DNA of 64,000 bases from the NCBI GenBank assembly GCA_022496805.1, contig CM040107.1, forward strand, positions 6,964,501 to 7,028,500, given 5' to 3'. Origin of the DNA: Pohlia nutans (Eukaryota > Streptophyta > Bryopsida > Bryales > Mniaceae). Below the pieces are notes generated by a model. That model saw only the letters and a program-made list of their open reading frames with translations, was not told where the DNA came from and did no database searches. The position numbers were made by a program, and so were the translations under genes. Of the stretch, positions 4,192 to 61,116 are shown piece by piece. How positions within the stretch are numbered: the stretch's first letter is position 1; each line of letters begins with the position of its first letter.

Positions 4192-4525
4192 ATCCTCGGG
4201 TCGAGGATAATGCTATTGGCTGTAATGCTTCCGGGCTCGGATGTCGCATATTATAACACCGTCTATAGTATCCTCGAGTGGAGGATAACTGCACGACAAA
4301 CTCTACGAAATTTCATTCAGCCCGGAACCCGTGCATAGACTGCCCAAAACCGAAGGCGTACTTCTTGTCTGTAAGAAGAGTCAGCGTCTACGTGTATCAA
4401 AGTGATCCATATCCTCGACATGAGGATATGGTTATAGGATACTGATGATAACGTGTACGTCATGTCTGGACTTTTGGTTTATAGTTCGGGGAGACATGAT
4501 GTCCCTATCAACTTTATCCTCGACT
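4192..4525. repeat. E1 palindromes upstream of the DUF7869-type gene
   Basis: Imperfect copies of the E1 palindrome lie at 4192-4208 (ATCCTCGGGTCGAGGAT), 4269-4287 and 4410-4428, with a half site at 4514-4525. They occupy the presumed leader of the minus-strand gene. Confidence 0.85.
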
Positions 4526-4529
4526 CATG

Positions 4530-7500
4530 CACTCCAATTTCTCATCTATCATGCACTTCTTGCAGTGTGAAATTTTTATTTCAAACTTATCTGGAAAGTT
4601 GGATTATGCATGTGTGGTCCCATTAGAAACGGGATGACTTGTGAAAGTTGAATGCCTCATTTCATGTTGTAGTGCTCCACTACTCATTTCGAAGATTTTA
4701 TTCCAAAGGTGCTCTTGAAAAAGTGAACTACCTAATATATGCTACGTAAAGAATGCCAAACATTACTACACTTAGACTATTACATTTGAACCCATCGGAA
4801 CCCCAAAAATGCATTACTAGATTGTCAATATTTTATTTGTACTAATTGTAATTGTTACAAACAATCGTTACATTTTAAGTTCGTAATATAATACACAAAT
4901 ATCGGTGATAGCCATTGCCAAAGTAATTGTATGGATAGAATCCATAATTAATTATGTAAAACTTTTATTCATTCATGAAAGACAAAATATCCCTCTTACT
5001 TGCTTTTTGTTATGTATCCTTTTAAATCAGCCAAGTTTGAAAAGAGTGAGAACATGAAGGGGTTAAACTATAATTATTTCAGACTATACTAATCGCGATG
5101 AACATATTTGGTTTTAAGGGATAAAAATTTAATTCGACATACTATTATTCAAGTCCAACATACTTTGAGTTGCATGTGACATGTGATAGAATGGTGATGT
5201 CGATTGCAATGTGTTCTTAGCTGCTACATAGTTAACATATAATAACTCATAATACAAATTTTATAAAGTACAAATAAAATGCTACTTATTCAATAAATAT
5301 GACCAAAAACGTAATAATTTCATAATTGTCATACGGTTAATTATTGGAACCTTTGCTGATAGGGTCTCGCGTTCGGAATCTATACATTTCATCTATATAT
5401 AATTTCTAGATTATTTTTATATATAGTAAAATAGTTTACTATTTTTAGGTTCATTAAGGTGTATTACACCTATATCCTATGAATATATCTAGAATTCCAG
5501 AAAATTGGTTTAAAAAAACCAAACATTACTCATATCAAATTAAAATTACTTTGTAGGTCTCATGTATAAAAGACACCCCACATTTTTTGGGTGAACGTGG
5601 TGATCTATTATGTTGATAATTATTTTCCTAGAAGAAATCAAAATTTAAATTTCTTTAATATAAATCTGTAAATTTGAACAACATATATGTTAATTGCCCC
5701 TTTAGCGGAATGTGCAATTGCATATCCCGGGGTTTGTTACTTAATTTACTTAGGATTCAATAATTTGTCATCGTTGTCTTCAATTTAATTTGTAAAAATA
5801 AGTAAGACACCTAAATGTTTATATTGTAAGAAATTTCCCATAATTGGTGATAATTTATAAATAGCACTACATGATGGTGAAATTCATAAGCACTATCCTA
5901 GGTACTTAATTACCCTAAATCATGTCCTTACTTCAATCTTTCATATGATAATTCATTATTCATATGATAAGAGTACAGTCATGACGTACATAAGATATAC
6001 TTCATGCATATGCTATGATTGAGCTCGATGTACTTGTAGAAGGGGGATGCACATGAATGCAAATCATTAATGCTTGGATGAAAATCATTAATGCTTCCAT
6101 GAAAATCATCAAATGAATATTTGGATGAGAATTATCTAATTTTTTGGCGGTTTGTCACTACGTTGTTGTCCTCTCTAAATAATGATCCTATTTAACTATA
6201 TTTCATTATGTGTTTTGCTAAAAAAAATTTTGTAGAAGTATGCGATCAAAGAACGAAAGGCACACCGCGTGCAGTCACAAATCAGGACTGAATAAGATGT
6301 CCAACGTCTAGGGTAGTCTCAAAGTGCTTGGCTGATCAAGTTAAGGGAGAAGAACAAAATAAAGGAATAATTTCATCGCTTGCATATGTATATCACGTTT
6401 CTAGAATAATCAGGAAGAACCTTGTGTACTTGAATGAAATACCATTTAAGATTTTGTACTTATTCTTTAATACTCAAATGAATTCTTTTTAATGAATTTT
6501 TTAGGTTACGGTCAAAAAGATATAGAATTATTGTCTTACTTAAAAAATTCAGAGTGTTGGTTTTTCTAAAAGTTATATTTCAGCTGAATTGATTTTAGAG
6601 TAATATTTAAGCTGTAAATGGGAAGTTGTTCTTCACCTAATAATTTTTCAACTTCTTTTGTAATTCAACACTTTTATAGTTTAGGGTCAACAAGACGAAA
6701 AGTTATTTCTTTAACCCATATAAATGCCTATAGTAAACCCTTCTAAACAAGGCTTATATGTATTAATAGATGATTCTAGATTTTGAACTTCGAAAAGCAA
6801 CTTTAACGCCTAAAGGTACTAGGGTGTCCATGGAATTGACGGTGCGAGAAAAATGATCCTGAATGACTATTTAGAAGATTATTTTGGAATTGATATACAA
6901 ATGAAACATCTAGATTTTGAATCTTAAATTCCAATCCATCCATACGGTTTGATTCACTAATATTACCATCAATATTTAATACTAAAATCTAGAAGTTAAA
7001 ATTTGTTTAGCGAACGTGATAACGATTTGAATCTGTTAATTGATTAAAGTGTTGACGTTTAGGAGTTAATCTATTGTGCGTTAGTCGATGCACTATAATT
7101 ATGTTATATTCGTGGTTTGTTGCATCACAGGCATTCAAAGGTTCATTTACGGGGTATGAAGCCAAATGCGATTATTCTATGATATAAAATAATACCCATA
7201 GTATATTCTATGAGTATTATTTGAAATTATTTTGAACCCCTAACCCTAAAACCAAGCATATTTTGCATGATGTACAGATTTCATCTATAGTTTCACATCA
7301 ATCATGCACTTTTAGCAGTGTGAATTTTTAAACTGAATTTTTAAATGGGAAGTTCACTTCATGTATGCGTGCTCCGATCAAAAAGGAAATAGTTTTAAAA
7401 AAAAAATTTGCCTCATTTTGTGCTGCACTGTTTCATCTAAAATTTGGAAGGTTTTTGTTTGAAAGTGTTGTTGAAAAATAAAACTCTTAAAATCAAGCAT

Positions 7501-9480
7501 CGAAAATGTCTCAAAAAATCAGTACACCTAGAGTACTACATTATAACCCATCACAACAAATTTCATCCACATACTGTCATTCAATATATTATTCATAATT
7601 GAATTCAATTTTATTTTTTATTTTTTTTATGTTTCAACGTGTTTTAGAAAAATACGAGTGATAGCAATTATAGATCTAACTGTATAAATAGACTCCAAAA
7701 TTCAAATTGTATGACTTTTATGCTTCTTTGCAAACCTCCCTAAATTGGACATAGGTGAGGACGTTTAGCGGTTAAGCATCCTATGTTATTAATAATATCA
7801 CTTGACCATTCCACTCAGACACCCACTTGCTTCACTTAATATTATAGTTATTACACACTCTAAATTGGAACAGAAATTTAACTTGAATTATTAAATCATA
7901 AAATAGTTAAAATAAGAATTGGTAATTTAATGATTAAAGTAGTATCCTAGTAGGTTGCTCCAAAAATTAACCATTATGTCATGACTATGTGTCTAGAATG
8001 GGGATTAATTAAGTCATCAATATACATAGGATACACACTAGGCATACTAAAATTATATCAGAAATGAATACACATATAGGCATTTAGGAATGCCAGAAAA
8101 CCGTACTTCTTAGAAAAGGGTTAGAGATACATATATAGAATCTCCGGCCTCTTTTGGGGGCAACGTGAATAAAATGTCTATTTGTAATGTCAATCTACTA
8201 GTGTCCACCCGACAAACAGTACTACAAAATACTTTGATCATAATTATCAACAGGCAAATGTTGAAAGATCGTGGCACGCATTTCTTTGTATTTTATTAGA
8301 AGTTTGACGTAATTGCATTTGTAGGCCCCTCCAAAATTATCAACTGCTCTACGTCGCAAGAAATACGCTAAGAAAGGGACTTTCATAATAGTGACGCGAG
8401 GTTGTATGAGAAAGTTCAAAGGCTTAGAATCTATAATTCTTCGTGAAAAATGGTTGGACGTGTCTAATAATTCCAAATAGAATTTAGGATTTTGTTTTTC
8501 ACCTTGGTTTTGATAGAATTACCTTTATTAGTATTGGTGCACCTTTTGATGCGCCAGCCTTCATTTTCTAGACGTATGAATTCTGACGCGTCCCTTCACC
8601 ACATACGGTGATATTCTTCATCCATCCAAAAGTCTCTTGATTCTTGTGCTAGTTAAATACCATTTGAACGGTATGGATCTTCAAAATAAGATGACGTGAA
8701 TTTTCAAAAAATTGCAAACGAAGTTCCTCAAGTAGTTTCTCTGAAATTTCAGTTTTAGTTCAGGAAGTGAGAACTTACACATTTTCAATTATAATTATAG
8801 TCAAACAATGGAGACCTTACCATCTTGTATTGCGTGTTATTCCAATCTCCTTGCAATATTTTTCAATTTTTGTTTATTTCTTGGGATTTTTAATTAAGTT
8901 TCAAGCAAAAACCGTGCAAAATTAATTAAAAATATTGAGATAAATTTGATGAATCCAATTGTACAGACATTTCTCTTTATATTGACAATTACAACTTTGC
9001 TTTGTAGATCAACTCCATTTTTGTTTTTCATCAAACATTTTAGAACACATCTTTGATAATAGTGTTCAATCAATACACTGAAGGGTAAAACAGAGAAGGA
9101 AAAAAAAATTTAAAAAAGAAATTCAAATTTAGAGTACATATCGTATTTAAGCTTTCAACTTATATAATAAAGTATTGTTCATAGTATTTTTGAATCAAAT
9201 CGTACGGGTTAAATCCACGATGCGTAATCTGTAACTTTTTTTGTATACCAATTCTGTGGGATTATACCCAGGCAACAAGTTTGACGTTATTACCTTTAGA
9301 GGCCTCTCGAATATAATCAACAATTCTCCTTCGTAAGAGATTTATTGCAATTGGTACAAAATTTAATAGGCTTAGAAATATGACTTGGATGAAAGAGATG
9401 CGAGGTACTCTAAGAAAGTTGCAAGGCTTTGAATCTGTTCGTCATCCAGTTTCTAGATGCTGGGACATTTAGGGGTTAAA
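4530..9480. repeat. AT-rich block with diverged internal duplications inside E1
   Basis: No gene is supported and no E1 palindrome occurs here. By eye, 4544-5600 and 7297-8180 are collinear diverged copies (for example CATCTATCATGCACTT against CATCAATCATGCACTT, and the TTTTTGGGTGAACGTGG region at 5585 against TTTTGGGGGCAACGTG at 8155). A second duplicated pair is 8309-8475 and 9279-9465 (AGTTTGACGT, then GCGAGG, then AGAAAGTT). The block separates the two E1 genes and looks like a later insertion or nest of non-coding elements. The piece 8540-9070 is also related to the DNA on both sides of E2. Confidence 0.6.
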
Positions 9481-9514
9481 AATAATAGCATTGCCTTTAT
9501 AGGCTTGGCCTACC

Positions 9515-10520
9515 TATGCTGGGGAGCCAACCTTCGGTGCCGACCCTAACACCTCAACTTCGGTGCCCTGCTTAAAACCCGAGCTTCGGTGCCGAGCCTA
9601 AGACCAAGCTTCGGAGCCAAGCCTAGTGCCCAAGCCAAGCCTCTTGGTTCGGGCTACGATTGGGAGGTCGTCTTTCTCCCCAAGCACCCGCAAGTTAGGG
9701 TTTTTGGAATTTCTGCTTGCTCTCAGTATCCTTCGTCGCCTCTTCTCGCTCGCATGACTCCATGCTTTCTTCTTCCTCCCTGTACATCTTGATTGTGAAT
9801 TTGCGCTCCTCCTCTGTACATTTTCATTGGGCGATTGGGCGATTGGGCGATTTGTAGTACAGTGACGTGCTTGGCAGTAGAAGCTCTCTTCCTCTTTTTT
9901 GTTGTTGTGGATGTGTGCGCTTCAAGGTGGACCTGCTCCATCTTCCTGAGGTAATTGAACCCTCCTTGTTTTGGTTTATTTTCTTGTTTGCTTCCCATTG
10001 TTTATTTTTGCTTGTCTGCTTGCTTTAGGGTCTTTGCTTGTCTGCTTCCTTGTCTTGTTTGCTTTTGCTTGTCTGCTTCTTTAGGGTTTACAGTTCTAAA
10101 TTTCAGAGGTGTTAGAATTGTAAGAACTATTAGAATTGTTAGAATTTTGTTAGAATATGGTGAGAATTTCACAAACCATGGAATCAACTCAGAAGCAGTG
10201 TAGGAGACTTTGACTAAGCGAGGCTTTTGAATCTTGAATCGATTACTCATGTTCAGGTATAGACATATAATTTTTCATTTAGTGATGATTTTGTAGTGTG
10301 GCAAAGATTAAAAGGAACTCAGATTCTGGGAATGAAATTCTGGCAATAAGGCAAGACTTTGTTCCTAATTTGTGATATAATTGGGTTGACAGCTTTAGCA
10401 TTGCAGGAGGGTTTCTCCAAGTGGAGGTGGGCTGCGAATTATTGCAGAGGAGGGAGCTAGAATTTGAAGGACAAGCACCGAGGTTTTCAGAGGTACTCGT
10501 CACATTTTAGAATGTTGGAT
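9515..10520 (+). promoter_or_regulatory. Probable promoter and leader of the E1 ParB-MTase gene
   Basis: A sudden GC-rich stretch at 9515-9660 holds five or six copies of a CTTCGGTGCC or CTTCGGAGCC motif. Pyrimidine-rich sequence typical of plant 5' leaders follows (9665-9800, 9880-10090, with repeated GCTTGTCTGCTT). A good splice donor (CCTGAG|GTAATT, about 9950) and a possible acceptor (ATTGCAG, about 10407) suggest a non-coding leader intron. Promoter identity is inferred from position only. Confidence 0.4.
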
Positions 10521-10600
10521 TTCTTGTAAAAGCTACAGATTAATAGATCATGAACTCTAGGAAGGTAATTATCTTCGAAATTAGTGCAAGTGCCATGCAG

Positions 10601-10771
10601 TCGAAGATAATTATCTTCGACTCGAGGAGAATTATCTTCGATTTGAGGATAATTATCTTCGGCTCGAGGATAATTATCTTCGACTCGAGGATAGTTCTCA
10701 TCGACTCAAAGAAATTTATCTTCGACACGATGCTATTGCAATCCAGCACAATTATCTTCGACTCGAAGATA
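10601..10771. repeat. Tandem 21-bp array of E1 palindromes
   Basis: Units of exactly 21 bp (consensus TCGACTCGAGGATAATTAT plus CT) start at 10617, 10638, 10659, 10680, 10701 and 10722, after a partial unit at 10601. A separate copy ends the cluster at 10750-10771. The 21-bp step equals two DNA helical turns, so all sites face the same side. Long open frames on both strands here are a by-product of the repeat. Confidence 0.9.
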
Positions 10772-10835
10772 TATCCTAATACCACTAGCGCATATGAGAA
10801 CAAAAACCATAACAAATACAAATCACAAACATAGA

Positions 10836-11552
10836 ATTATCCTCGACTCGAAGATAACAATCAACCAACCCAATCAAGAATTGCAAATTTGAAATGTATG
10901 ACACTTGGAACAAGAAATTATCATCCCGGCCCATACCATTATCCTCGACCCAAAGATAAATATCACTCGCTAGCAGACGGCGCAGACAAAAACCATAGTA
11001 CAAAAGTAACTCCCCGCACAAAAATCCACGAAGATATCCTCGAGTCGAGGATAATTCTCAATGACAAATAACCAACATCTGTCCTAAATAGAATCTACTT
11101 TACACATAATGAAAACCAGCAAGCTTATCCTCGAATCGAGGATATAAAGAGTACCAAGTACATTGACGAAATTCACGATATCAATAATTTTCCACACCAG
11201 TACAATGCGCCGGCATGTGCAAACCCATTACCGAGTCACAGGAGTCGTAAAATATTATCCTCGACCCGAGGATAATAGTGTCATATCCTCGACGCGAAGA
11301 TTTCAACCATCAACTGCACAGAAGATATCCCGAAGATACAACAGTAAACCTGATCGCCTTCCCGATTCTAGACAACGCAAGCGGTTTATCTTCGACCCGA
11401 AGATACTCATAACCGAGTCCGCAATGCTAACAATGATTAGAGCTGAATTATAGTGAACCCAGACAAGTTTATCCTCGAGTCGAAGATAAAGTCCGCATAT
11501 CTTACCACACCTAACACATCCCAAAGACAAAACCAATCCTCGGGTCGAAGAT
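10836..11552. repeat. Dispersed E1 palindromes in the leader of the ParB-MTase gene
   Basis: Copies of the palindrome stand at 10836-10857, 10939-10959, 11035-11053, 11125-11144, 11254-11276, 11283-11301, 11385-11405, 11468-11490 and 11535-11552. Arms alternate between ATCCTCGA and ATCTTCGA. The sequence between copies is unrelated, so this is not a simple tandem array. Confidence 0.9.
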
Positions 11553-13061
11553 ACTATAGTACTGCACGATCGCTAACAAACCGTATTCCCAATGTCATGT
11601 GCAGGACTATTCCAATGGCTCCAGCGGACACTTATGACTATTCCTCAACACTTCCATACATGGAGCCATTTGAGAATCCATTTGAGTCGGAGCCTTTCAT
11701 CCCACCAGAGATGGAGTCCACCCACGGAACTCTGTGGAAATTCAAGGACTGCGTGAAAGCTTGGACATTCAGGGTGAGCCAATTCAAGAAATATGTTTAT
11801 CTGAAGCACCTTGAGAAAGGAGGACCCGGATTCCTAGTATAGAACAACAATGAGAAGGTCACAATCGTCAACTCGTACCACAGCAATTTTCTTGTCATCA
11901 CCCTCAACGAAATGGATGACAGCGGCAGAAATAAATCTCACCTCCACTCCTTGGTCATCAAAGTGCACGAGTATGGGCCGAGGTTTGACATGGACGACCT
12001 CAGCGCTTCCATGAGCCAATCCACGCCAGAGTTAAGGCAAACTTTCGAAAAAATCAGCGACTAGAAAAACGCTAAAGCAACAATCGTGTCGCGAAAGCTC
12101 AACCTGATATGGATGTCGCTGGACAAACACGCGGGTAGACAATCAACGAGAACGCCCGCCTCAGCAATCCGAGAAAGGCGACCCCGCGACCTAGAAACTT
12201 GCGATGAAAACAGATCCCAGTCGGGAACAGAACGTGGAGGTAGTCGCGCTAGTGGGGGTAAGAGAGCCCGCTCAAACCCCCGAGTGTCAACAGCTGAAGA
12301 TGCTCCGGCAGTTGAAGTGAGGAAGAAGAGGAGGATTTCAACAAATGCCGCACGACCCTCATCCGCGGGTAGCTCGGGCTCCGCATTGACGGAGGTGGAG
12401 AGAAGACCTACCAAAGAGCCAATGCCAGCAGCAGAGTACCTCAAGTTCGCGCAACAACGCATAGAGTTCTGGGAGCAGCACGGTGACTGCTACATCTTTG
12501 GCAAGGACGCAAAATTCCCGGTATCCATCAACCAGTGCAATCCAGCACATGAGGAGTACATCATCTTAAAGCTGGAGAAGCATATGCTGGAGACGTGCAA
12601 GACTAAGCTCCTTCAACTTGCAGACATCAAGCAGCGGCACGTCGTGTGCCTCACTCCCGTCGACAATGACATGAAGTTGCTAAAGAAACTGCCTGCCAAA
12701 TGGGAGGACATCCAGCTTGGTAAATTCATGATTATTGACGGCCAGCACAACATTTCAGCTTCAATCGAGCTTCAGCGAGGGCATTGTGACGAGAAGCGGC
12801 GTGAAGAGCTCAGAATGTGGGATGCCTACATTGTCTGGACATTGGACCCGCTGAAGTTGCACAACATCTCAAAATTCTATAACACCAACAATCACCTCGA
12901 ACACGCCCAACCAACATGGGGAAACCAGATCATCAGCGGCCGTCTAATCTGGATACACTTCAAACGGCCAACCATGAATGGGGCAGAGGCACGGGTCCGG
13001 GGGAACAAGGCGATCCAAGCACCATATAAGTGGCAGGTATATACTATCACATTGTATGAGT

Positions 13062-13236
13062 AATTATCCTCGACTCGAGGATAAGGCCTCACGCTCTTCG
13101 TTGAATAGTTCAAATTCCCAAACATTCATATCATTACCCCCATCATTTGCTAAATATATGTAATCTCGTAATGTGCTCCTGAGACAAGCGGTTTGCAGTT
13201 CAAACTTAGAGCCATTATCCTCGACTCGAGGATAAT
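13062..13236. repeat. E1 palindromes in intron 1 of the ParB-MTase gene
   Basis: Two perfect copies, 13062-13084 and 13214-13236, lie within the 250-bp intron 13037-13286. The corresponding introns of E2 and E3 also carry copies of their own palindromes. Confidence 0.9.
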
Positions 13237-14634
13237 CACATCAATGTCTGCCTCTTACATCAGATATGATCTTGACTGTTTTGCAGACCTTTGTGACTAT
13301 GATCTTGAGTCGATTTCAGAGTATCAACCCCAACAAAGAAGGAAACAACGTGAAGGGGATCACTGATATCAAACATGACGTTCGAAGACGACCACTACGC
13401 CATGGGGGAGATTTTTCTGACCAGGTACACCGACGGGGACATCGTCAATCCGGATACGTCCCTGCCTTACAGACAGAACAAGGGCGTAGAAAAAAGGTAC
13501 GAGTTGAAGTGCGAGTTCTTCAAGCATATCGGGCACTTCACAGACGACGACCTCAAAATTTACGTGTAACATCTGCTCGGGAGGACCCCCAATAGAACGC
13601 TGCCATACTCCAAAGTCTCCGTTCAGAAATCGAAAAAGCTGGTCCTGGACAACTACTGTGCTAGTGAGTGGGTTGAGCGCCGGAAGTGCAAGAAGGTCAT
13701 TCTGGAGGAGTTGGTGAATGCTGACAAGTCCCTCACATTTGTGAAGGACGACGGCAATATGGACAGGCAGAAATGGAGAGACTGGAAGAAGACGTGCTCT
13801 TTCTCCTCAGCGATATGGGACTTTCTTCTCGCCACTCCCAGCAAAACATACTCCGCGATGCGCCGGACAAACAAGGCGGTCAACCAGCGGGCGAATGAGA
13901 TGGGGGACAAATTCATAGAGTTGAGAGACATGTTCAGTCGCTTTGTTTCGCTGAAGAAAAACGTACCAAAGTGGACTGGCAAGATTGAACTACGTGCCCA
14001 TGATGGACCGTCCATGGCGTTCGTCATGAATCCAGCGTCGTGGGACTACGCTCTCAATACCAGGCCTCTGAGCTTGGGGATTGCAGATCTCCGGGACGTT
14101 CCGAAGCAAAAAAAATCCGACAACCCGGTCGCTCCGGCTCCGGTTATGCCATTCCTCGAGAAGCTCCACCAACTGAATGACCCGTCAATAGAAGAGCCCA
14201 AAGGATGGCTCTGGATTAGGGCGGACACATGGGATGATGCAGCGGCGGTTGTGTTCATCGGGGTTCATTTCAAGGACTGGGAATACAAACAATCTGTCTA
14301 CAAGGAATGCAAAGCTGAGCGGCTGTATGACATACCGATTCGGCAGGCTGCGCTGCCCTCCGATAATCTCCACTTCTTTTATCAGCGAGATGTTCTATCA
14401 TACATTCTTGGGCTCATCAAGCCAGAGTACATTGCAGCCAATATTGCCTACTACAATGATCCCCGGGAGAACCACGAGTCCAATTTTCGATCGAACTCAA
14501 GCGAGCTGCGGATGGAGTTCTACTTGGACATTATCCAGAACTTTGCTTCTCCGGGAGAGAACTTCTTCGGCGTCTACACGGGTGCCAAGTGCATGCTAGC
14601 TGCAAAGGTAGTGCCTCCCACCATTGGTGGACTG

Positions 14635-14770
14635 TTATCTTTGAGTTGAAGATAATTCCAGTCGTTATAATGCCTGCACTGCATGTATGTTGGTCCACAT
14701 GTGTGCATTTGAAGTGCAATTTCCCAAAGATTTATGCTCTCACTCCTCCTCTATCTTCAAGTCGAGGATA
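14635..14770. repeat. E1 palindromes in intron 2 of the ParB-MTase gene
   Basis: Two imperfect copies, 14635-14655 (ATCTTTGAGTTGAAGAT) and 14752-14770, lie within intron 14608-14849. Confidence 0.85.
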
Positions 14771-15470
14771 AGTCTCGAAGCTCAACCACCTATAGCGTGC
14801 CCCCTGTTCATACAAATCACTAATCCTAAACCGCTTGGTGATTCTGCAGATGTATGGCTTGCACTACTACGGGATCGCCAGCAATGTGGGATTACACAAA
14901 CTCAAATCCCTAGTGCAGAAGGTGAAGAGCTTGGACATGAAGGACTTCCTGTTCGGAAATTCCCCGTACATAGGGAATTACATCAAGCCCGTTACAGAGG
15001 CAATCCTGCGCTCTAGCGACGAGGAGTCATTTGCCCCTCCTGCACGGTCCAATGATGTATGTCGCCAACAGGTGGAGGACGTCAATGCGGAGCTGGGCTG
15101 TGACGAGGAGGACCATGACCGGGCGGATCTTAAGCGCAACGAGGAAGACGAGGACGTCTATAAGGAGTTCAACCAGTACGGGACTTATCTTTTTGGCCGG
15201 CGTGGCGAGGAGGAAGATGATGGAGAAGATGAGAAGCAACAAAAGGCAACTCACAGTACGATGAGGTGATCGCCAAAGCCAAGCAGGATGCAGAGGCCGA
15301 AGCCAAAGAGGAATTTATAGCAAAGTTGAGGGCCAAATACTTGAACAACCTTAGGAGCTCCCAAACCGCGGGTTCTTCTACTCCGTCTGCTGGACCCTTG
15401 AATTTGGCGGTGAGCACCACCCCTGCTACTCAAGACTCGGCCCTCCACCTTCCCACTTACGATGCTCCCG

Positions 15471-19500: not shown

Positions 19501-19546
19501 AACTAATATTTAACTAATTATGGGCAAATTCGTAGTCCATAAATAA

Positions 19547-49541: not shown

Positions 49542-49562
49542 CCAGTGGGTAATTGCCCACTG
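49542..49562 (+). repeat. E3 palindrome inside coding exon 1
   Basis: The copy reads PSG-stop-LPTG in frame; the CAA of the consensus palindrome has become TAA. The intact coding copy at 56260 reads PSGQLPTG in the same register. Confidence 0.85.
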
Positions 49563-50440
49563 GCGCAAGCGATGACGCTACGGAGGAGGTCACTCCTGCT
49601 ACTCAACCCACGAAGCGCAGGATGAAGAAGACGCCCACAAACGGGAGATAGAAGGATTTGGCAGAGGTGACTAGCCAAGCATCCCCAAGGACCATGGGAA
49701 GGCTGGAGGAGGCATTCCGTGAAGGGTGTGGGGTCGCGGCGGACCGAAGCGCGGTCCCAGGAAGAAGGACACCAAAGCGCGCTCCCAGAAAGAAGCAGGC
49801 CCTGCATCCAATACGAGTGAAAGACGAAGGGGACGTAGTAATCACAAAATGCCAGAGCGAATTGTATGAGTTCAAGTGGCGCACCGCCCACATTTACCCA
49901 CTCGGACAGGAGTTCACGAAGGCTATCCACGTGGACAATATGGATCCTGCTCCCCAGCAGTACAAGTACAGGCTACTTCAAGAGGGCCTAGTGGACACAC
50001 TGCTGCAGGTGCTGCTAACACAGCTCCACCTCAACAAGTGGACGCTGACCCTGATGCCCAAGAGTAAAGTTGTACCCACGTCCTGGGAGGATATTAAGGA
50101 TGCCTAGTTCTACATCATCAACGGGCAGCACACGTTGGCAGCTGTGAAAGGCATGTTCGAGAGTACGGAGACCGAACAGGTACTCAAGGACGACTACGAG
50201 TTCTGGAAGTGCAACTTTGTGTGGACGAAGGACAAACTGGCGCTCTCAGAGTTGTCACGGCGCATTAACAACACAAACCAGTTCAAGTGGGAGTCGCCCG
50301 AGTACCTCGCACACATTCAATATGCTCAAGATTTGTGGACGCAATACGGGATGCCGACGCTAGCCAGCCAGGATAATTTCAAGGTAACTTTTCATTGGAT
50401 GTGGTTGCGCTCCTTGGATTTGCAGAGGTCACGATCTCGT

Positions 50441-50559
50441 CCCAGTGGGCGATTGCCCACTGGGAATCGTATAATGCCAGTCGATGTAATGTTTCCATTC
50501 CATGTGCAAGTGAGCAGTCATCACGCTGTTGTCGTCCCAGTGGGCAATTGCCCACTGGG
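50441..50559. repeat. E3 palindromes in intron 1 of the ParB-MTase gene
   Basis: Near-perfect copies at 50441-50464 and 50536-50559 in intron 50384-50606. Confidence 0.95.
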
Positions 50560-51180
50560 AATCGAAACCCAATACAATCCAAACTGATTTCAATGTGCTG
50601 TCTCAGGAGTTCTCCTTGAAGGCAGTGGAGACGCTCAATGCCATGGCTTGGAAGAACATGAACAAGAAATTCCTAAACTACCCAGGCGAGTTCCGTGTAA
50701 TCACCGCTCCGGCTGAGATATACGACGCAATACTGCAATGCTTCCGATGGTACGAGAGTGGCGACTTGATAAACCCCGACTCAGGCAAATAGTACAACGA
50801 GGAACTTGGCCCCAACAAGACGTGGAAGAGGAAATACACTGTGGCCTTCAACAGTGGTGCGCTTCATCAACAACAGGTGGACAAGCGACATTTGGGAGGA
50901 TAGTGACATCAACTTCGATAGGTGGAGGACGTTCAAATTTGACGTGGGCTTCAATTCTGCCCACAGGGACGAGTTGCTTCGCAGAGGCACGAGAAAGTAC
51001 CTGAGCAACTTTCTCAAGACCAGCGATACGCCAAAGCGGGAGCAGGAACCTCCACCGCAGGAATTCACTGCAGAAATCCTCCGAGTGGTGGAGAAGGCCA
51101 AGACGATTGACATGAAGCCTCACGATTGCATGATTGCCGAATACGTAAGTTTCCACCCCCTTCCTCAGTTCATTGTTATG

Positions 51181-51201
51181 CAGTGGGCAATTGCTCACTA
51201 G
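51181..51201. repeat. E3 palindrome in intron 2 of the ParB-MTase gene
   Basis: CAGTGGGCAATTGCTCACTA stands 36 bases after the donor at 51145, just before the E4 insertion. Confidence 0.9.
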
Positions 51202-51410
51202 GATAAAGTGCGGCTCTTGTCAAACCTCGTTTTACCGAAAGCGGCTAGTTAGGGTTTCTAGGGCAACTAGGAGTAGTCTTTCCGCCATAAATAAGAGAAG
51301 TAATGGCCATAACGGCCCCGTTATTTATTTAGAGAGAGAGTACCATCCGCGCGCAGCCTAGAGGAATTATTACAGGACTAGACTGACAGCAGGTTCCGGA
51401 GGAAAACCGG

Positions 51411-52454
51411 ATGGGAGACCGGATAGGTGAGGACGGGTCTCTGATGGACTCGGTCACGGTCCGAGCATTAAAGTGGGCCGCTCTAAACTGGGCGACCCAC
51501 TGTTCATTCACTCTCTACAGCTCCAGTTGTCCGCGCCAGCAGAATTTCGAGCTTCCGGATAGCCGTAGAATTGATAGTGTGGGACCGGAAGTAGAGAGCA
51601 TTCAGCGACCGTATTGTGCAGATTCTGAGCGTCAGGGAGTGAGAGAAACTGAACACCCGGTGAGAAACAGCGACGCAAGGTTAGAATTTGAAATACGCAA
51701 GCCTCCGGACAGTGCGCACCGCCATTTCCGGCGGAGTTTGAGGAAGAAAGGAAGTGCGCAGCCAGGAAAAGGGTCGCGGGGTCTCCGGGAGGTTAGAAGA
51801 ACACCACGGAAGCGGAAAGGGAAGCGCCTGGAGCGGGAGGCGCGAGGTTTACCGAGGAAAGAGAGGGCGCATCCAGAGAAGGAGCTGCGTCACATCCGGA
51901 GGAGTGAAGAATTCCGCCCGGAGTCCGCAGCCATGGCACGCAGGGAAACCGGAGCCAAGATTCCGGAGAAACGTATCTGCCCGGACATCCCGCAACACGA
52001 ACAAGACTTCGACGAGTTAATGTAGGACATCCAGAAGATGGGGTGTTTGGGATTGTTTGGGAGAGTGTGGGATGTGCAGGACTCCCGGATGCTGGAGGAA
52101 ATCGAGGGCGGGCCGATGGTGAACGCCTTCCGGACAACCATCCGGGCGAAGTGTGGCAGCTGGACCCGGGAGATGTGGCGGGAATTGTACGACTTCCCGG
52201 ACACCAACGAAGACCTGGAACCGGGAGGCAAGGGCGACACGGACTGGGTGAAGATGCGGTTCAGTCATCTCTCGGACAAGTGGAGAGAAGACCAAGTGGA
52301 GAGAAGACCGCCCGGAGGGAGGCCGACCGGGTGGCGCCAGGCCGCAACAGGAGGAGCGGCAGGAAAGGAGAAGGGACCCGGGGCTAGAGTGACCAGGTGG
52401 GGCGAGACCTCAGCCGGAGCAGAGAACAAGGGCCCGGGAGGGGAATCCGGATGA
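51411..52454 (+). pseudogene. E4 first gag-like frame, one in-frame stop
   Basis: One frame runs from MGDRIGEDGSLMDSV to the TGA at 52452, broken only by a TAG at 52023 (DELM-stop-DIQKMGCLG), probably once CAG. The first half is highly basic and arginine-rich. The second has a short globular part (GLFGRVWDVQDSRMLEEIEG; WTREMWRELYDFPDTNEDLE; DWVKMRFSHLSDKW) and then a proline- and glycine-rich tail. No zinc knuckle or enzyme domain is seen. The composition is shaped by the recurrent CCGGA motif (Pro-Glu, Arg-Lys, Ser-Gly). It may encode a gag-like structural protein; I cannot name the family. Confidence 0.4.
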
Positions 52455-52944
52455 GGAAGAGGATTCTCCACAACCGAAGCTAACCCGGAAGAAGACGGCG
52501 AGAGGACAAGAGGCAATTCCTCAACCGGAGATAGGCGGTCCTTCCCAGACACAACCTCGGGTGGATCCGATCAAGGAGTCTAGGCCAGAGGAGGAGACAA
52601 GGCCTTCTCCACCCTAGCCCCAGGGGCAACCGGTAGAGGGACCCGGACCAATGGAGGAAGATTCTACCCCGGCGGCTCCACTCGAAAGTATGGGAGAAGA
52701 GAACCGGACAGACCGGGAGGGAGGTCCGTCTCAGCCGCGATCTTAGGGACGGAAGAGGAAGTTAGTCCTCCCGGTTGAAGGAGAGGAAGAACCGGAAGGA
52801 CCGGATACCACACCTGGAAAGAAGAAGGGACCGGCCCGGAGGAAGGTGACCCCACTCAACAAACGTCCCAAGGAAGCAGGGGAGGACGAAGAGGAAACCG
52901 GAGATGAGTGGGACCAGGAGTAGGGAATCCCAGCAAGAGCAGAA

Positions 52945-53823
52945 TTGGTCCAGGAGGCAGGCCCATCCGGGAATGTGCCAGCGGAACAAAGAGAACCGCT
53001 CCTGATGGAGGACATGTTACTGCAGACACGGGTGGCACTGGACATGGTTACAGAGGAGTACAACCCCATGTTCGCTGCTCTCTGGGAGACAGGGACTCTT
53101 CTCCGGACGAATGACGCTTTGGAGTATCCGGCGCGGATTCGGAAGCTCCAGAGGAAACTCATCCGGAGCAGGGAAAGGGAGAATGAGCTAACCGGACAAC
53201 TGCAGGGTATCCGGGAGGCAGAGAGCGAATCGGCGGCTCTCTTGAAGGGATTTGAGGAGGAGCTGCAACAAAAGGTAGCCTACATTAACAAGATGGAGGC
53301 CCACGTACAGAGGAAGGAGTTGCAGATCCGGGAGCAAGAGGATACCATCCGGAGGGTGGCAGAGACAAGCCGGCAATGCGTCTCCAAGCTATCCGGGTTG
53401 TTTCAATCGGATGGGGAGGCACAAACGAAGGCCCGGTTGTACGACGAGCGGGTACTTCGACCGGGATTGGAGGGAGCAGCCCGGATGAAGAATGTAGTCC
53501 GGGAGTACTCGGACAAGGTAGAAGCATATTTGGTGGAGTTCCGGGTACTGGCGGAATACATCCGGGAGAGCTCTTCGGAGGAGGAGTCGGATCAGGAGGA
53601 ACCTACCTCCCGGACCGTGGTGGATGTGGAGCCAATCCACATGGTCCGACCCGCGGGAGTAAGCCTAGAAGAAGTCCGGGATTTGAGCGAAGGTATGGAG
53701 GCAATGGATGTCCACCTGGACAGGGCGGACAAGCAACAGGAGGGACCGCCGCCAGGGTGCGGAACTCGGGGAGATAGGCCGGCGGATTCAATCTTGGTGG
53801 GGAGCCTGGAAGATGAGGAATAA
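52945..53823 (+). CDS. E4 coiled-coil protein (292 aa)
   Basis: The intact frame begins MVQEAGPSGNVPAEQREPLL. Residues about 55-135 form a strong predicted coiled coil (RKLQRKLIRSRERENELTGQ; EEELQQKVAYINKMEAHVQR; LQIREQEDTIRRVAETSRQ). An acidic serine-rich linker (ESSSEEESDQEEP) and a short C-terminal tail follow. No catalytic or zinc-binding motif is visible. It lies downstream of the basic first frame, with about 490 bp of broken coding-like sequence between. A gag-like or structural role is inferred from the coiled coil and the mobile setting. The upstream frame may once have been continuous with it, so the start codon is uncertain. Confidence 0.45.
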   Translation: MVQEAGPSGNVPAEQREPLLMEDMLLQTRVALDMVTEEYNPMFAALWETGTLLRTNDALEYPARIRKLQRKLIRSRERENELTGQLQGIREAESESAALLKGFEEELQQKVAYINKMEAHVQRKELQIREQEDTIRRVAETSRQCVSKLSGLFQSDGEAQTKARLYDERVLRPGLEGAARMKNVVREYSDKVEAYLVEFRVLAEYIRESSSEEESDQEEPTSRTVVDVEPIHMVRPAGVSLEEVRDLSEGMEAMDVHLDRADKQQEGPPPGCGTRGDRPADSILVGSLEDEE

Positions 53824-54008
53824 CAGCCGCAAGTAGGCCAGTAGCTGCCCGGAATCATCGGAGTCCCGAAATCGGTGGCCCGGACTTAGTGGATCCGGCC
53901 GCTTTGAACGGGCCCCTTTTTGAGTAAGTAGGGTAGGACTCTGTTTGGGAGTTAGTTTTTAGGATTCTAATGTTAGTTGCAGTGTAGGAAGATAACTAAA
54001 TCGTGGGG

Positions 54009-54200
54009 TGGCCCCCCCCCCCCAGTTTTTCTGGATCTGCGGGTTTCCCGGATCTGGTCGGCTTTGTGTTTTCTTTTTATCCAGGGATGTTCCTCATTCC
54101 TGGTGTCTTCTTTTGTGTACCATTTTCTCTTTGTAAATGATCATAAGCATACTCTTCTATGGACCGGAGCGTTTGTGTGTGTGTGTGTGTGTGTGGTTGT
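54009..54200. repeat. Poly-C run and (GT)n microsatellite
   Basis: A run of 12 C at 54012-54023 and alternating GT at 54172-54195, both in the non-coding right part of E4. Confidence 0.95.
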
Positions 54201-54264
54201 TGATTGAGATCGTGGTCCAATTAAGTCCCTTGGTAACCGGAATAGTTGATCGGATTCTGTTGTA

Positions 54265-54625
54265 GATCTAGTTGTTCTGTGCTCGGTTGCAAGGTGTAAT
54301 TCGGGTTAGTGGCTGAGTGGGTAGGATGGGGTACTCCAGTCCTCTCAGAACTCCTGGACGGGTAGTCCGGTTGAGGTGCCATCACCTGGGTAGATCATGT
54401 GACAGAAAGGCATGGAATAGCTAGAGTAACCGGGTTCTGTTGTAGATCCAGTTAAGAGTCTGGGTATTAGGCAAACTTAGAGTTTGTTTGAAGGTGGGTT
54501 GTTCTGTGCTCGGTTGCAAGGTATAATCCGGGTTAGTGGCTGAGTGGAAAGGAGGGGGGTACTCTGGTTCTTTCAGAACTCCTAGACGGGTAGTCTGGTT
54601 GAGGTACCAGCACCTGGGTAGACCA
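54265..54625. repeat. 140-bp duplication in the E4 non-coding part
   Basis: 54268-54408 and 54497-54635 share TTGTTCTGTGCTCGGTTGCA, GGGTTAGTGGCTGAGTGG, CAGAACTCCT and CACCTGGGTAGA. Confidence 0.85.
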
Positions 54626-56259
54626 TGTGATAAGGAGAGCGGGAATGATCAGAGTAAAATGAACGATTAGAAGTCGAACCAATTCCAGATACCCCGGGTA
54701 AATGTCTATACCGGTTATCAAGTCGTTGTAGTAATTTTTAGAAGGGGGAAACCTAGGATGTGCTTAAGTGACCGGCTGTGGATTTGGGATGAATCTGCAG
54801 CTGAAGTACAGTACGGGAATTACCCGGATTAAGGAGTGGAGTTAGGATAACCGGAAGGTAGTGAAGTTCCTATCACTTGAATTAGCAGGAAGGGTGTGTC
54901 TTTAAATCCAGCACCGCTAAATGTAAATGGAGAACCCTCTGAAGGAAAACATAGGTTAATGTAAACCGGTTTAAGTTTTTGGATAGACCGGATAGAGTAG
55001 GGTTGGATAAATTCCCAACTTGGACGACAACCGGATCTAGTCGTAACCGGGTCAGTCAGTAGGAGAAGGCCCGGTTTGGTAGGAAAGAGGAATTCAGCTG
55101 GTGACAGAGAGAGAGAGAGATCACCAGGCCCAGACCATCTCCGGAAACTTCCCACTTCACAGAGTCTCCGCAGAACGATAACCCGGAAATCACCTCTACG
55201 AGCGTTTCTAATACGAAAAAGTGCGTTCTAGGGGAATATCCGGTATCACGTGCTACGACAGCTCTGCAAGATTCTACCGTGGTAGGGTCGCCCCATTGTT
55301 GGAGCGCAGATGGCGGACAACATGTATCTGAGCCAGCACCAGCAGGGTCACTCGTTGGGCAACCAGCTCGTCGGGTTTGAGCACCTGTTGCACACTGGGG
55401 TGCCTACCGATGACTCAATCCCTGCTTATGATATGTGGGCACCTGAGAAGCAAGACGCATTACATGAGCCAGAGGGCTCAATATCTGACGAAGAGGAGTC
55501 GAACGTGGATACTCCAGAGGTACGGACGAAGATGGCACAAGACCGTGTCGACGAATCCGACTCGGGATCGTGAAGAGAGTCCGACGCACGGGAAGAGGTG
55601 GACAATACAGGGAAGTCGGACCAGTCCCACACAGATGATGAGGGGGACGCCATCGCAGATGAGGGTGGGGCCATCGCAGATGATGATGGTGGGGCCATCG
55701 CAGATGATGAGGAGGTCTCCGCAGATGACGAGGCCTCCGCAGATGACGAGGAGGCACAGTCGCGCTCCGAGGTTGAGACGGACCCGGGAAACCGCGTCAA
55801 GAGGGAGAGAAGTCCAAGTCAGGAGATGGAAAGTAGCTTTAGGATGCGCATGAACGACCAGTACGAGCGGAAGCCGGTGATTAACAACATGGCGAGCATT
55901 GAAGAGGAGGTGGACGGGCTGGACGTTGATGACACCACTCCCATCGCAGGAAGCACGGACAATCTGACGCTGCCGATGTACGTTGGCCTCGCAGAAGGAA
56001 GCAGGGAAATCCCTCCGACAGTGCCATCGCCTCCCCTATCGCCTATGGAAGTTGATAATGTTCTACTGGCAGGAGAGAATATTAATCCCGGTGGTAGCCT
56101 CCATGAAGAAGATATTATACCCACTGGGAGCGTCCATGAATCCTCGGTGCCCATTGCTTTAGATGACACAACAGGTGCAGCATGAAGCTAGGGCGAGCCA
56201 GAGAGTCTGCACCCGGGCACGCCGAGTCCTGTCTTCGACAATGGCTCGGCAGAGGTCAT

Positions 56260-56283
56260 CCCAGTGGGCAATTGCCCACCGGG
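56260..56283 (+). repeat. E3 palindrome inside coding exon 3
   Basis: The copy is read as PSGQLPTG. A half site (TTACCCACTGGCC) follows at 56313. Confidence 0.9.
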
Positions 56284-57579
56284 GAGCCCGCTGGAGACGA
56301 CCCTAGTGCGTATTACCCACTGGCCAGCACGCTCGACGTTGTCGCGCATGTTGCGTACGAGCATCAGACAGCAGAAGTCATCGAACTGGCTGCGCGAAGT
56401 GTCCCAGCAGACGTATCGGTGACGACGGAGCCGCAGCCCGGCGAGCCGACGACTCCGACGAAAGCGATAATTGTTGGAGTCACCCTGGGCTTGGTCACAG
56501 TCAAAGTGGAGAAGATGTCGGTGCCGCTCGTGTCCAACGTTGGCGATCCGATCCTCATTGACAGCGATGAGGATGACCTCCTGTGGAGGACCGTGAAGCA
56601 GCTAAACCCAGAGCCCCCGGTGTCTGACTTGTCCGACGGCCCAGAGGAGCCTTCGGCGGCAGAGGGATCAGATAGGAAGATGTCCCTGGGCAAGGCCTTG
56701 CGAGTGCAGCTGTCAAGGATTTCCAAGGACAAGCTATCAAAGAATCGGGAAATACTGCAACGTAACCGGCAGCTTGCCTTTGACAACATGAAACTGCAAA
56801 GGGAGACGGCGAAGTTGCAGGAGCAGTTGGCGAAGGCGCAGGCGGTCATAGAGAAGGAGACAAAGGCACGGGAGGAAGCAAACGAGACCCTCCGGAGCGC
56901 TGGCATAGCACACGAGGAGTTCATATCCTCCCCTTCAGGTCCCCTCACTCAACTGACAATGTCTGTTGCATCCGCCCCAGAGTTGTCGGGATCGGAAGCG
57001 CTAAATCTTTCACAGCCTGAGGTCGTTCCCAAAACGGAGGGCGTACCGGAGACAGAGATGGTCCCATCAACGCAGGTACAGAAGTGAGGAGGACCGTGAG
57101 TTGCATCTTTTCTTTCAAAACCCCACACACATACTTAGGCTACTGTCAAGCAGGCCAATGCATTAGACTACATTAAATCTGTCGACACTCTTGTGCAGGA
57201 TGCTGCCATACTAGAGTGGTTTGCGGCGATGCGCACGGACGCTCATACACAAGTCAGTTTATCAGCACAACAATTACAACTGCAATTCACTGCGATTCAA
57301 CTCTTGTCCAGTCGGTTTGGTAGTGTGTTGATTGATGAATGGGAGGTCGAATTAATGGAAAAGGGCGGGGTTTGTCTACAAGGAAATTGATCGTCTTTGT
57401 AGGGAGGCGTGAACCTGAAGACAGCGTCTCCGTCCTCAGCATTGTGAAGACAGCCGTGTAGTTTTTGTACATTTTTGTAATTAGTTCTTGTACAGACGTA
57501 GTCTATCTCAAGCAGTAGTGGACTGTGGCTCTGCAAGACGATTGTACTTGGGAATAGAAGTAGGCATTTATATTTTGGA

Positions 57580-57604
57580 CTAGCGCTCAATAAAATTTGA
57601 GCGT
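57580..57604 (+). promoter_or_regulatory. Candidate poly(A) signal within a hairpin
   Basis: CGCTCAA and TTGAGCG form a perfect stem around AATAAAA, about 190 bases after the stop of the E3 gene. A poly(A) signal fits the position; the hairpin may be chance. Confidence 0.45.
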
Positions 57605-57609
57605 GATAA

Positions 57610-58420
57610 ATTTTCATGACTCGTTAGCCTATCGGACTAGACATAATTCCACAGTAATAAATATCATTTACCACATAATGCGCGAGCTGTGTATGACTGT
57701 TGATCGATTGGTGTCAATGGCTTTACGCAATACACGGTCGTCGTGGACCACTGTTTTGATACTTTCCCTGTCAATTCTCAGGGAAATAGGCCACGTGTGG
57801 ATCGTGCCCGTCCGATAAAGGTAAGCTGGACTGTTGCGCGTCCATGACTTTTCATTAATGTGCGATCGAGATTCCTACATCTTCACAAGCTCTTGTTATC
57901 GTCACGTTGGAGGCTTGACATGATCGCGCTCTCTGTGGATATGAATCCTGCAGCGTACAAGAGAGAGTGTGCCGGAATGGAAACTGCATAGTCGGCGAAA
58001 GCTAAATAGGTACATCCCTAATACGGCGTCATCATCGTAAGGGCTGTACGAACATATTGTATCGCAAGTGTCAGGATATTCATGGCTCAAGAGTCCTTGC
58101 TGCGGCACCAGAAACCGATGCAACTCGAAGCCAACCCTACTTGAGCGTAGTCACAATTTATAAAAGCGTGCAACTTACATTAGTAAAGATAAAATTCTGA
58201 GTACAGCACTGCATCGAAATGTTAGTGGAGAGCACCAGCATTTGGTGCCCCGTTGCAGTGCTCTACGATTAGAATCTACAGTAGTTTGCGAATGTTAAGT
58301 CAAAATTGAATTCATGTACGTTTTTAAAGATGGAAGCGGTTTCTCTAGTCTGCAGTATAGTACTCCGGTACTGCACTACTGTGCGCACACACGATCTAGG
58401 CAGACAGTGGAGATGTGAAC
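57610..58420. other. E3 3' region, no supported gene
   Basis: No domain-bearing frame and no palindrome copy is visible. Confidence 0.5.
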
Positions 58421-58448
58421 CACTTTGCCCTGGACATTGTCTGCAGAT

Positions 58449-58470
58449 CTAGTGGGCAACAGCCCACTGG
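58449..58470. repeat. E3 palindrome downstream of the ParB-MTase gene
   Basis: CTAGTGGGCAACAGCCCACT, with one arm base pair changed at the centre. Confidence 0.85.
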
Positions 58471-58924
58471 GTGGGTACGGAGTCGGCCTCGACAAATTTG
58501 ATTGTAGTGCCACCTCCAATGCAGATAGCCGGGTCCAAGTCACATCTGTGATGATGGCATACGTGGAGAACGACTGGAAATATTCACATCGACCGGCATC
58601 AATGAGGAAATATACAAAGCATCAGCAGACCCGAGTCAAGGATGTTGCCTGGCCCAAGCCGCCCCCAAGCACAAACAAGTCTGCCTACAGTGGTAGAGGA
58701 CGAACCAGAGCATCACGACATTGAATGGAAGTCTCGATGTCGGCCTGGAATTGTAGGAGATTCAATACATGTTGTCAATGTTATTTGCGGGCATAGGACT
58801 GGGAGAGGTGAAAGATGTCGTAGAAGAGTAAGACACCAAGATACTCGTTGTTCCTATTGGGTAACGGTGCGAGGAGACTGCAGCAGGGAACTCATGCTGG
58901 ACACCTCGAAAGAGTGCTAAGAGT

Positions 58925-59500
58925 GAAGGAATCATTTGTGGTTGACACTGTAGCAGGATATTGGAGCCAAATGGAAGAGTGGGAGGATGAAACATGGCAG
59001 AGATGGGAAATGTGAAGGCCAAGAAAGATCAGACTTGTAATCACAACGACGACGTCACAGCATCGTGCAAAGGTGATTTTCACCCTGCAGTATACAACGG
59101 TCTGCATAGTCTATGCAACATGATTAGCCCCTTATCGTACACAACATTTTGTCCACGTAGGGGCACGCATTGTTGTAGCGTGGAATCATGCACAGTCATC
59201 TATGCAGCTGTGCATGATGAATGACAGTGTATGATGCTTCGCTAAGAGCAATTATATCATGTTGGATGGGCGGAACGAGATATGGGGTGACCACGGTCTA
59301 AACTATTGTGCAGATAGTTGTATACTACAGGGTGACAATCAGCTATGGACAACTCTGGATTGTCGCCCTTTACAAGGGTTTGTTCTTACTCGGCTGTCAC
59401 ATTTTCCCCCCTCTGCCATGTTTTGTCCTCCCACTCCCTTGTTTGGTTCCCAATATCTTGCTGCAGTGTCAACCAAAAATGATTCAGTCATTGTCAAAAA
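58925..59500. repeat. Inverted repeat with arms of about 180 bp
   Basis: 58925-59106 returns inverted at 59305-59498 with roughly 75-80% identity by eye (GTGTCAACCA, TTGGCTCCAATATC against TTGGTTCCCAATATC, CCTCCCACTC, CTCTGCCATGTTT, GTTGTATACT). The 200-bp loop has no gene. It may be a foldback element or a source of small RNA. Confidence 0.75.
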
Positions 59501-60671
59501 GGGTTTATATGGTTTCCTAGTTCTGTCACACGTTCCCTTTGCACTTGCCAGTAGACAAGAACGCACTACATGCTTCAGGAATGTCCCAACGTTTGAAAAT
59601 AGACCTTCCCTTGACACTCCTTTGTAGACTTGTTTGCATTAATTTGAACTCTCCAGCAGTCCTACAGCTCGCAGGAAGCCAGAGAGTATGTATTGAATAT
59701 TCTACGGAAAGCTTAGAACTCCAGTCCTTCAATATGCACAACAGCGAGACTTCCATCCATTGTCTTGATGTGCAGGCTCGTAATGAGCGTCTTGGGTATA
59801 CAACATGAAAATTTGAGTGATCGCCAATTAGAGCTTACGGTGGATCTCATTCTTCCTAATAGCATTCAGTGCATGGGAGCGTAGGGAAATGGTATTGACT
59901 AGACCACTCCATATTGTGTTGTACATTCAAATGTATCTGTCTATAAGACTATAAATAAAAATGTTGTGGGCGATTCAACACTTTATACAAGAATGTATGT
60001 AACACAAAACTTATATGGTCATCAACAAAGTATAGGAATCCAACCACAGTCGCTGTAACACGTTGCACGGAAGACTGATGAATAGAACTCAAAGAATATA
60101 GTCATGGTATTGGATGCACGACGAATGTATTTGGAAGTAGTGGGTTCATCGTCCGTATTCTAGCATCTCTACATCATGTCCGACTGTAGCACCTCTCTGT
60201 CCAACTAGTTTATCTTCCCTATGCTTCTCTTGTCATGGCTTGGATGAAGAGGACATGTCATGTTGGTGGCTGCAACCCTTCCAGACCCCCTCTACGTATA
60301 GATATTTTGCACTTCGCTCAGCGTGGTCCCAATACGGTGGAAAGTACCAATTCAACGAACAATGCCATACTGTACTTATTCCCGCCATTCACCTCCTCCA
60401 CGGATATCTCTGTGAATGACCTCAAATACCTTTTTTAAGGACCCCGTGTACGAGATGTCAAGCACCTTCTCTGTGTCTCTACTCCCTATATTTGTTTCCC
60501 ACATACATTACTCTTTGTCAATAAATATAATACTGCTAAGAATTTTCAGTTCATTATTCTACAATTCTTGATCATTTGCCAAGGGCTGAAGAATTTCGTA
60601 CACTTAGTTTTCATGAACTATCGTCTATATTGTTATCGTCTTCGTTGTAGGACATTTACATTCTTGCGAAC

Positions 60672-61116
60672 CCGGTGTGCAATTGCGCAGTGGCTAACGC
60701 CCTCAATCCGTAGCACTAATCGAGGTCTTGACATTCCTGCCACCCCAGTCTGCAATTGCACACTGGCTACGCCCTTCAACGCATGCTATACAATTTAAGG
60801 GCTACATTGTACCGATTGATTCAAAATTGACATAATGCCTAGTTCAACATGTTACAGGATTTAAAACCCTACAAGTTTTAAATTTGCAACTGCTCACTGT
60901 GTATCCCAAGCGCTACTCTAAACTAGCTAATTCTTCATTAGTAATGTACTGGGCAAGTGGGCTGCAGCGCACTGATACAGTATTCCTAAACTGCAGTGGT
61001 TTTGGACAATGTAACCCCATACTGTTAATGTAGGCAGTTTGTCATTCGTAATCGCGGCCAATACTTGAATTCACTCTACAATACTTATTGACTAGTCAGT
61101 GGGCTATTGCCATTGG
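60672..61116. repeat. Degenerate E3 palindromes at the right end
   Basis: Copies at 60672-60692 (GGTGTGCAATTGCGCAGTGG), 60744-60766 (CAGTCTGCAATTGCACACTG), a half site near 60882 and 61097-61116. The core CAATTG stays while the arms drift together, keeping symmetry in the second copy. Confidence 0.8.

Follow-up and report, generated by a model that had tools for sequence, protein, structure and literature searches.

Three elements, here called E1, E2 and E3, were analysed in a 64-kb window of the Pohlia nutans genome (64,000 nucleotides; assembly GCA_022496805.1, contig CM040107.1, positions 6,964,501 to 7,028,500). Each of them encodes a protein with predicted ParB and methyltransferase folds and carries its own dispersed palindrome of 19–20 bases (P1, P2 and P3, respectively). 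With a probability of about 0.55, the elements represent long DNA-transposon families whose private palindromes are the likely sites of the element-encoded protein, each family thereby addressing its own copies. Each protein clade has its own private sites, which occur many times per element and are replaced together when the clade changes. They are kept above the neighbouring non-coding DNA and look constrained.

Three private palindromes in the window

Sites of P1, P2 and P3 were counted on either strand of the window with up to three mismatches. All 23 sites of P1 were located within E1, all 32 of P2 within E2 and all 11 of P3 within E3. In 50 Markov resamplings of the window, the mean count was 0.02 for P1, 0.02 for P2 and 0 for P3, and the largest count was 1, 1 and 0. 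The palindromes are thus real and far above chance. An earlier note, made from the sequence alone, had described three different palindromes, one per element; they were recovered in place together with their variants. Their occurrence in leaders, introns and coding sequence was also borne out (leader, introns and coding tail in E1; intron and coding sequence in E2).

E1, E2 and E3 are members of large families in a genome of 698 Mb. The window copies are decayed, as in-frame stops were found in the ParB-like genes and at least one frameshift in E1. Reading of TAA and TAG as glutamine was considered as another explanation of the stops, since only table 6 leaves the ParB-like frames of E1 and E3 free of stops (for 639 and 650 codons). 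It was rejected, because in many genomic copies the exon-1 frame is long and uninterrupted within the match and because the relative P0001 has a tryptophan at both TAG positions of E1. The change from TGG to TAG at these two positions is the one expected from deamination of methylated DNA. In decayed genomic ParB copies, the in-frame stops seem by eye to be mostly TAG.

Palindrome type and protein clade

The genome was searched with the ParB exons, and 150 of 879 candidates were scored for E1, 150 of 850 for E3 and 150 of 210 for E2. Around E1- and E3-type exons, 75 loci of approximately 3.6 kb were cut (the best 30 of each search and 15 chosen by identity band), including the window's own copies, L009 and L054. 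In a motif-blind palindrome search, the P1 family ranked first in 43 of 45 loci of the E1 lineage, and P3 or a near variant did so in 26 of 30 loci of the E3 lineage. For the E2 clade, P2 occurred two or three times in the intron following the ParB exon in all seven fetched pieces (less than 500 bases, 56–92% protein identity). The co-variation of palindrome type with protein clade that the earlier note had proposed was confirmed on a tree of 74 ParB copies, where the four palindrome types need three changes, which is the minimum, against a mean of 32.7 after shuffling. In this tree, L073 and L081 (less than 150 amino acids) were dropped, E2 was represented by one row with its type set from the window, and only the four known types were scored.

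A switch of a single base per arm was observed within the E1 lineage. Arm base 5 is a pyrimidine in 479 of 490 arms at 87–100% identity and in 42 of 42 arms near 62% (521 of 532 in total), and a purine in 48 of 48 arms near 57% and in 76 of 78 arms near 52% (124 of 126 in total). Nearly all sites of one element change together, and they do so with the protein clade.

Across clades, the palindrome bases are kept above other intron and leader bases in six out of six comparisons (0.85 versus 0.51 and 0.81 versus 0.49, for example), the other bases being kept at 0.40–0.67; the sites were picked by consensus match in one of the two sequences, and the alignment still favours palindromes somewhat in this measure. 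An earlier version using sites present in both sequences gave the same direction where sites are shared. The positions of the intron palindromes are conserved within the E1 clade. It is very improbable that the palindromes are passengers which spread in an ancestral element and were merely inherited thereafter. Such an origin would agree with the short tandem runs formed by some sites (10612–10693) and with the E3 clades at 66% and 53% identity, which share no intron-1 site (0 aligned palindrome bases). It is contradicted by the concerted switch of arm base 5, by the conserved intron positions and, allowing for the somewhat favourable measure, by the better conservation of the palindrome bases.

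Exon 1 was also matched by 24 proteins from other public assemblies. Where they read on into the intron, 12 of them contain palindrome-coded peptides, five of the pyrimidine type, six of the purine type and one (P0010) of both. The 11 single-type proteins and 25 of the 75 loci require two changes for three types on a joint tree of these loci with all 24 proteins, which fits the clade rule; when 'none' and 'both' are included as states, ten changes are needed. P0010 splits off close to the base of the purine clade with a support of 80–83. The outside rows are not all independent, since some of them (P0001, P0006 and P0020) hardly differ from copies in this genome and could stem from this species or a sister one.

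Distribution in the genome

The earlier note had stated that no palindrome occurs outside its own element. This is correct within the window and does not stand for the genome, where 277 exact P1 sites, 1552 sites of the P2 type and 153 of P3 were found, besides 295 of the purine type; every reversed-pattern control returned 0. Among the ParB copies compared, the sites keep to their own clade. Of 23 pyrimidine-type copies, 22 have an exact P1 site within 20 kb, versus 0 of 33 purine-type, 0 of 31 E3-type and 0 of 26 E2-type transcribed copies, and 82 of the 100 listed P1 sites lie within the same distance of a pyrimidine-type copy. For P3, 31 of 50 listed sites are near (20 kb) E3-clade copies, and seven of eight such copies have a site. 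Similarly, 28 of 50 listed P2 sites are near (20 kb) E2 copies, all four of which have a site; on the same stretch, P2 is near none of three purine-type and none of four E3-type copies. Listed sites far from any listed ParB copy may belong to unscored or gutted copies.

More than 400 ParB-exon matches were obtained in the assembly, most of them in chromosome-sized contigs. This location, together with the lack of any ParA-like family among 20 open reading frames (ORFs) of the window searched against Pfam, leaves hardly any probability for an extrachromosomal form with a parS-like system of segregation or copy-number control, which the predicted ParB fold would suit; plasmid-like segregation, one of the roles considered in the earlier note, was not supported. 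A viral origin was also rejected, since none of 14 stretches matching the pattern in viral contigs was a relative. The contig that holds the window (16.7 Mb) contains 25 of the 40 best E1-type ParB matches and may be a sex or heterochromatic chromosome.

The ParB-like protein

The designation of the three proteins as ParB-like methyltransferases in the earlier note is backed by predicted structures of two relatives. For the E1-type exon 1 of P0001, ranks 1 to 11 were occupied by ParB, Noc, RK2 repressor or ParB-N chains; the predicted fold matches only modestly (best E value 1.2e-3). The predicted structure of P0028 matches beta-class amino-DNA-methyltransferases such as CcrM, M.RsrI and the rotifer N4CMT. 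Neither a ParB nor a methyltransferase family was detected for these parts in Pfam and NCBIfam searches, and exon 2 had no match in PDB by sequence.

Bacterial ParB proteins bind CTP via a GERR-type motif. This motif is absent here, and IINGQH stands invariantly at its place in 23 of 23 homologues of one alignment. The corresponding residues are IIDGQH in E1, IINGQH in E3 and IIGVQD in E2, the latter being devoid of the GQH motif.

The catalytic DPPY-type motif ([DNS]PP[YFWH]) was found in none of 25 relatives, nor in the three joined readings from the window, which are partly out of frame. From its absence in the relatives, the methyltransferase-like domain is likely a non-catalytic reader. 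This makes it improbable that the protein marks itself by methylating adenine or cytosine in its own palindromes, as the earlier note had suggested among other functions, even if an altered but still active site is conceivable. The match of the predicted fold to amino-DNA-methyltransferases is in favour of self-marking, and so is the proposal made in a study on Ectocarpus that the protein binds and epigenetically modifies its own sequence (PMC12477816).

Element structure and the DUF7869 gene

Candidate inverted ends would delimit E1 and E2 to approximately 15.8 kb each (Table 1). The ends of E1 reach a local score of 44 versus at most 31 in 30 single-base shuffles, and those of E2 a score of 39 versus at most 33. 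Sola-type transposons have terminal inverted repeats and a 4-bp target duplication; at these candidate ends no secure duplication was seen, and the search of the window for inverted ends of E3 gave nothing beyond chance. The joined ParB-like reading of E1 comprises 1044 amino acids, its end not being fixed. In both E1 and E2, a gene with a DUF7869 domain lies on the strand opposite to the ParB-like gene, with palindromes on either side of the intergenic space.

Table 1. Features of the three elements, with positions in the window.
Feature	Position	Strand	Basis or remark
E1 element, likely limits	679..16422		Imperfect inverted ends 679-705 / 16396-16422, 25/27; all P1 sites inside
E1 DUF7869 gene (likely Sola-type transposase), decayed	1278..4186	-	Pfam PF25273, E 1.7e-31 on ORF 2348-3049; exon limits not fixed
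P1 sites (3), between divergent genes, near DUF7869 gene	4191..4428		Site count
P1 sites (14), leader of ParB-like gene	10612..11553		Site count
E1 ParB-like gene, exon 1, two in-frame TAG	11615..13036	+	Relatives P0001-P0024; predicted ParB fold for P0001
P1 sites (2), intron 1	13065..13234		Site count and locus comparison; same offsets in many E1-clade copies
E1 exon 2, methyltransferase-like	13287..14607	+	Fold matches DNA methyltransferases (relative P0028); one frameshift near 13377
P1 site, intron 2	14752..14770		Site count
E1 exon 3	14850..15266	+	Splice-site reading; frames broken further on
P1 sites (3), coding-tail sequence	15472..15709		Site count
E2 element, likely limits	19501..35486		Imperfect inverted ends 19501-19527 / 35460-35486, 24/27
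E2 NIF-type phosphatase-like gene	19765..21914	-	Pfam PF03031 on ORFs 19765-20538 and 21351-21914, just above cut-off
P2 sites (32), throughout E2	20556..34589		24826, 24884, 24941 in one intron; 28476, 28821 coding
E2 ParB-like gene	22302..26477	-	Exons about 26477-25581, 25473-24982, 24774-23441, 23320-22302 (last joined out of frame); genomic relatives
E2 DUF7869 gene (likely Sola-type transposase)	28138..32335	+	Pfam PF25273, E 1e-37 on ORF 30318-31283
E3, stretch with 11 P3 sites	47681..60765		Ends not found
E3 ParB-like gene, first large exon	48635..50383	+	Open only with TAA/TAG read through; start not fixed
P3 sites (2), likely intron after ParB exon	50443..50557		Site search

DUF7869 (PF25273) is probably linked to Sola transposases, and the DUF7869 genes of E1 and E2 are likely transposases of the Sola type. 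The layout of the Ectocarpus Sola-1 element, with its ParB-methyltransferase gene opposite to the transposase, agrees with this label. No literature on DUF7869 was found. Among 45 transcribed genomic copies of the E2-type DUF7869 gene, 33 have an E2-type ParB exon within 25 kb, 20 of them at a distance of 5.4–5.9 kb, which shows that the two-gene unit is real for E2. Six ORFs of E3 searched against Pfam gave no DUF7869 match, the right part of the element lying outside this search. A second, numerous DUF7869 family of about 60% identity is present on many contigs (e.g. C7:20553271); by eye, no listed ParB copy stands beside this example.

The linkage of both genes raises the question of which protein reads the palindromes. 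If they were sites of the Sola-like DUF7869 transposase, dispersed like subterminal motifs, the ParB tree would fit as well, because the two genes travel together. The frequent pairing of the genes in E2-type copies and the P2 sites in and around the E2 DUF7869 gene point in this direction. This reading has to be taken seriously but is less likely, as the sites of E1 are densest in the leader of the ParB-like gene, those of E1 and E2 run along the element rather than just near its ends, and proteins of the ParB fold are known to read palindromes.

Several further features were observed in the window. P2 sites lie among the NIF-type phosphatase-like ORFs of E2, which could represent cargo or an accessory gene. 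Close to the right end of E2, on its inner side (34905–35276), TTTAGGG-type runs occur in three copies of one stretch. The G+C-rich region with long ORFs at 51200–55300, following the P3 site at 51181, is perhaps a retrotransposon inserted in E3. Two similar AT-rich stretches form an inverted pair at 4764–4997 (inside E1) and 17979–18192 (outside E1). Finally, a tandem array with a period of roughly 50–57 bases was seen as staggered self-matches at 62776–63691.

Proposed function and known systems

As the palindrome changes in step with the ParB-like protein, each protein likely recognises the sites of its own family only. The ParB-like protein would bind each palindrome as a dimer and, by way of the numerous sites in leaders and introns, would be able to cover the element. 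Its methyltransferase-like domain, in which the usual catalytic motif is missing, would act as a reader or scaffold and not as an enzyme. The result could be that the element's own promoters are kept free of host silencing, in trans and on related copies only, which would also allow sister families to coexist. Escape from silencing in trans is considered the most likely use, owing to a layout like that of the VANC motif system; assembly of a transposition complex would come second and self-methylation third. A more far-reaching scenario is proposed tentatively, in which plant or algal transposons turned a bacterial ParB-methyltransferase into a catalytically silent, sequence-specific device of self-recognition. 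The dozens of private palindromes would then serve as parS-like sites in the nucleus, at which the protein loads before it spreads over the element to shield it from silencing, and sister families would split by a joint switch of protein and palindrome, for which the flip of arm base 5 and the mixed sites of P0010 may be examples.

Several observations weigh against recognition of the palindromes by the ParB-like protein or weaken the evidence for it. Protein and sites are inherited together, so that agreement between tree and sites is not in itself proof of contact; the sites could instead be read by the linked transposase. A number of labels on the tree (L047, L079, L082 and L083) rest on a single site. 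The peptide patterns used for the outside proteins were set after some of the tails had been seen, and patterns of five residues can arise by chance. Exact P3 was near none of 21 E3 relatives at 44–54% identity, some of which carry variants, and the lack of a common intron-1 site in the two E3 clades counts on the same side. Among the listed sites, 18 of 100 for P1, 22 of 50 for P2 and 19 of 50 for P3 have no listed copy of their own clade within 20 kb, and the purine-type list includes many scattered singletons (untallied). Furthermore, the E2 protein has lost the GQH motif, yet its clade keeps P2.

ParB-methyltransferase accessory genes of algal transposons are already known (PMC12477816). 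The Ectocarpus Sola-1 transposon described there carries such a gene on the strand opposite to the transposase, with a protein of 1104 amino acids for which an active enzyme is predicted. By this description, E1–E3 resemble Sola-1 as long DNA transposons combining ParB-like and methyltransferase domains in one protein, encoded in E1 and E2 opposite to the likely transposase. They differ in their private co-varying palindromes and in the absence of the catalytic motif; the stem 'palindrom' has no match in the paper on Sola-1.

A closer parallel in layout is given by the VANC proteins of Arabidopsis VANDAL elements. According to PMC5735166, they bind short motifs specific to each family, which lie upstream and in introns, they cause DNA methylation to be lost throughout the element, and proteins and motifs evolve together. 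Common to both systems are a factor encoded by the element itself, many short motifs located upstream and within introns, and a motif which is not the same in related families and evolves along with the protein; a private motif co-evolving with the element's protein, as in VANC-like systems, is seen in the E1–E3 families. In contrast, the VANC21 motif is a 9-base word found in same-orientation arrays and tandem repeats, with no 'palindrom' in PMC5735166, whereas the sites of E1–E3 are long palindromes, some of them coding, and the protein is ParB-like. The bacterial ParB-parS and KorB/Noc systems share the predicted exon-1 fold and palindromic sites; here, a methyltransferase-like region is attached, the genome is large and eukaryote-like, introns are present, and IINGQH replaces the GERR-type motif. 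Fungal DNA transposons carrying TET/JBP dioxygenases also have a gene that may act against silencing; the enzyme family is a different one, and no private sites are reported in the available text (PMC12730594). Private co-evolving palindromes of ParB-methyltransferase transposons were not found in the literature searched, which left aside the green and red algal cases cited as references 50 and 51 in PMC12477816; this is no proof of their absence.

The co-evolution data are unusually clean. If the proposed reading is true, it assigns target sites to a suspected and so far unexplained accessory protein of algal transposons, and motif-guided self-recognition of transposons would have a second case, built independently, beside VANC. 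With the natural series of clades and their matching sites, including the one-base change in each arm, the code linking protein and DNA would be open to direct testing, and the series could be a source of orthogonal DNA binders of the ParB type.

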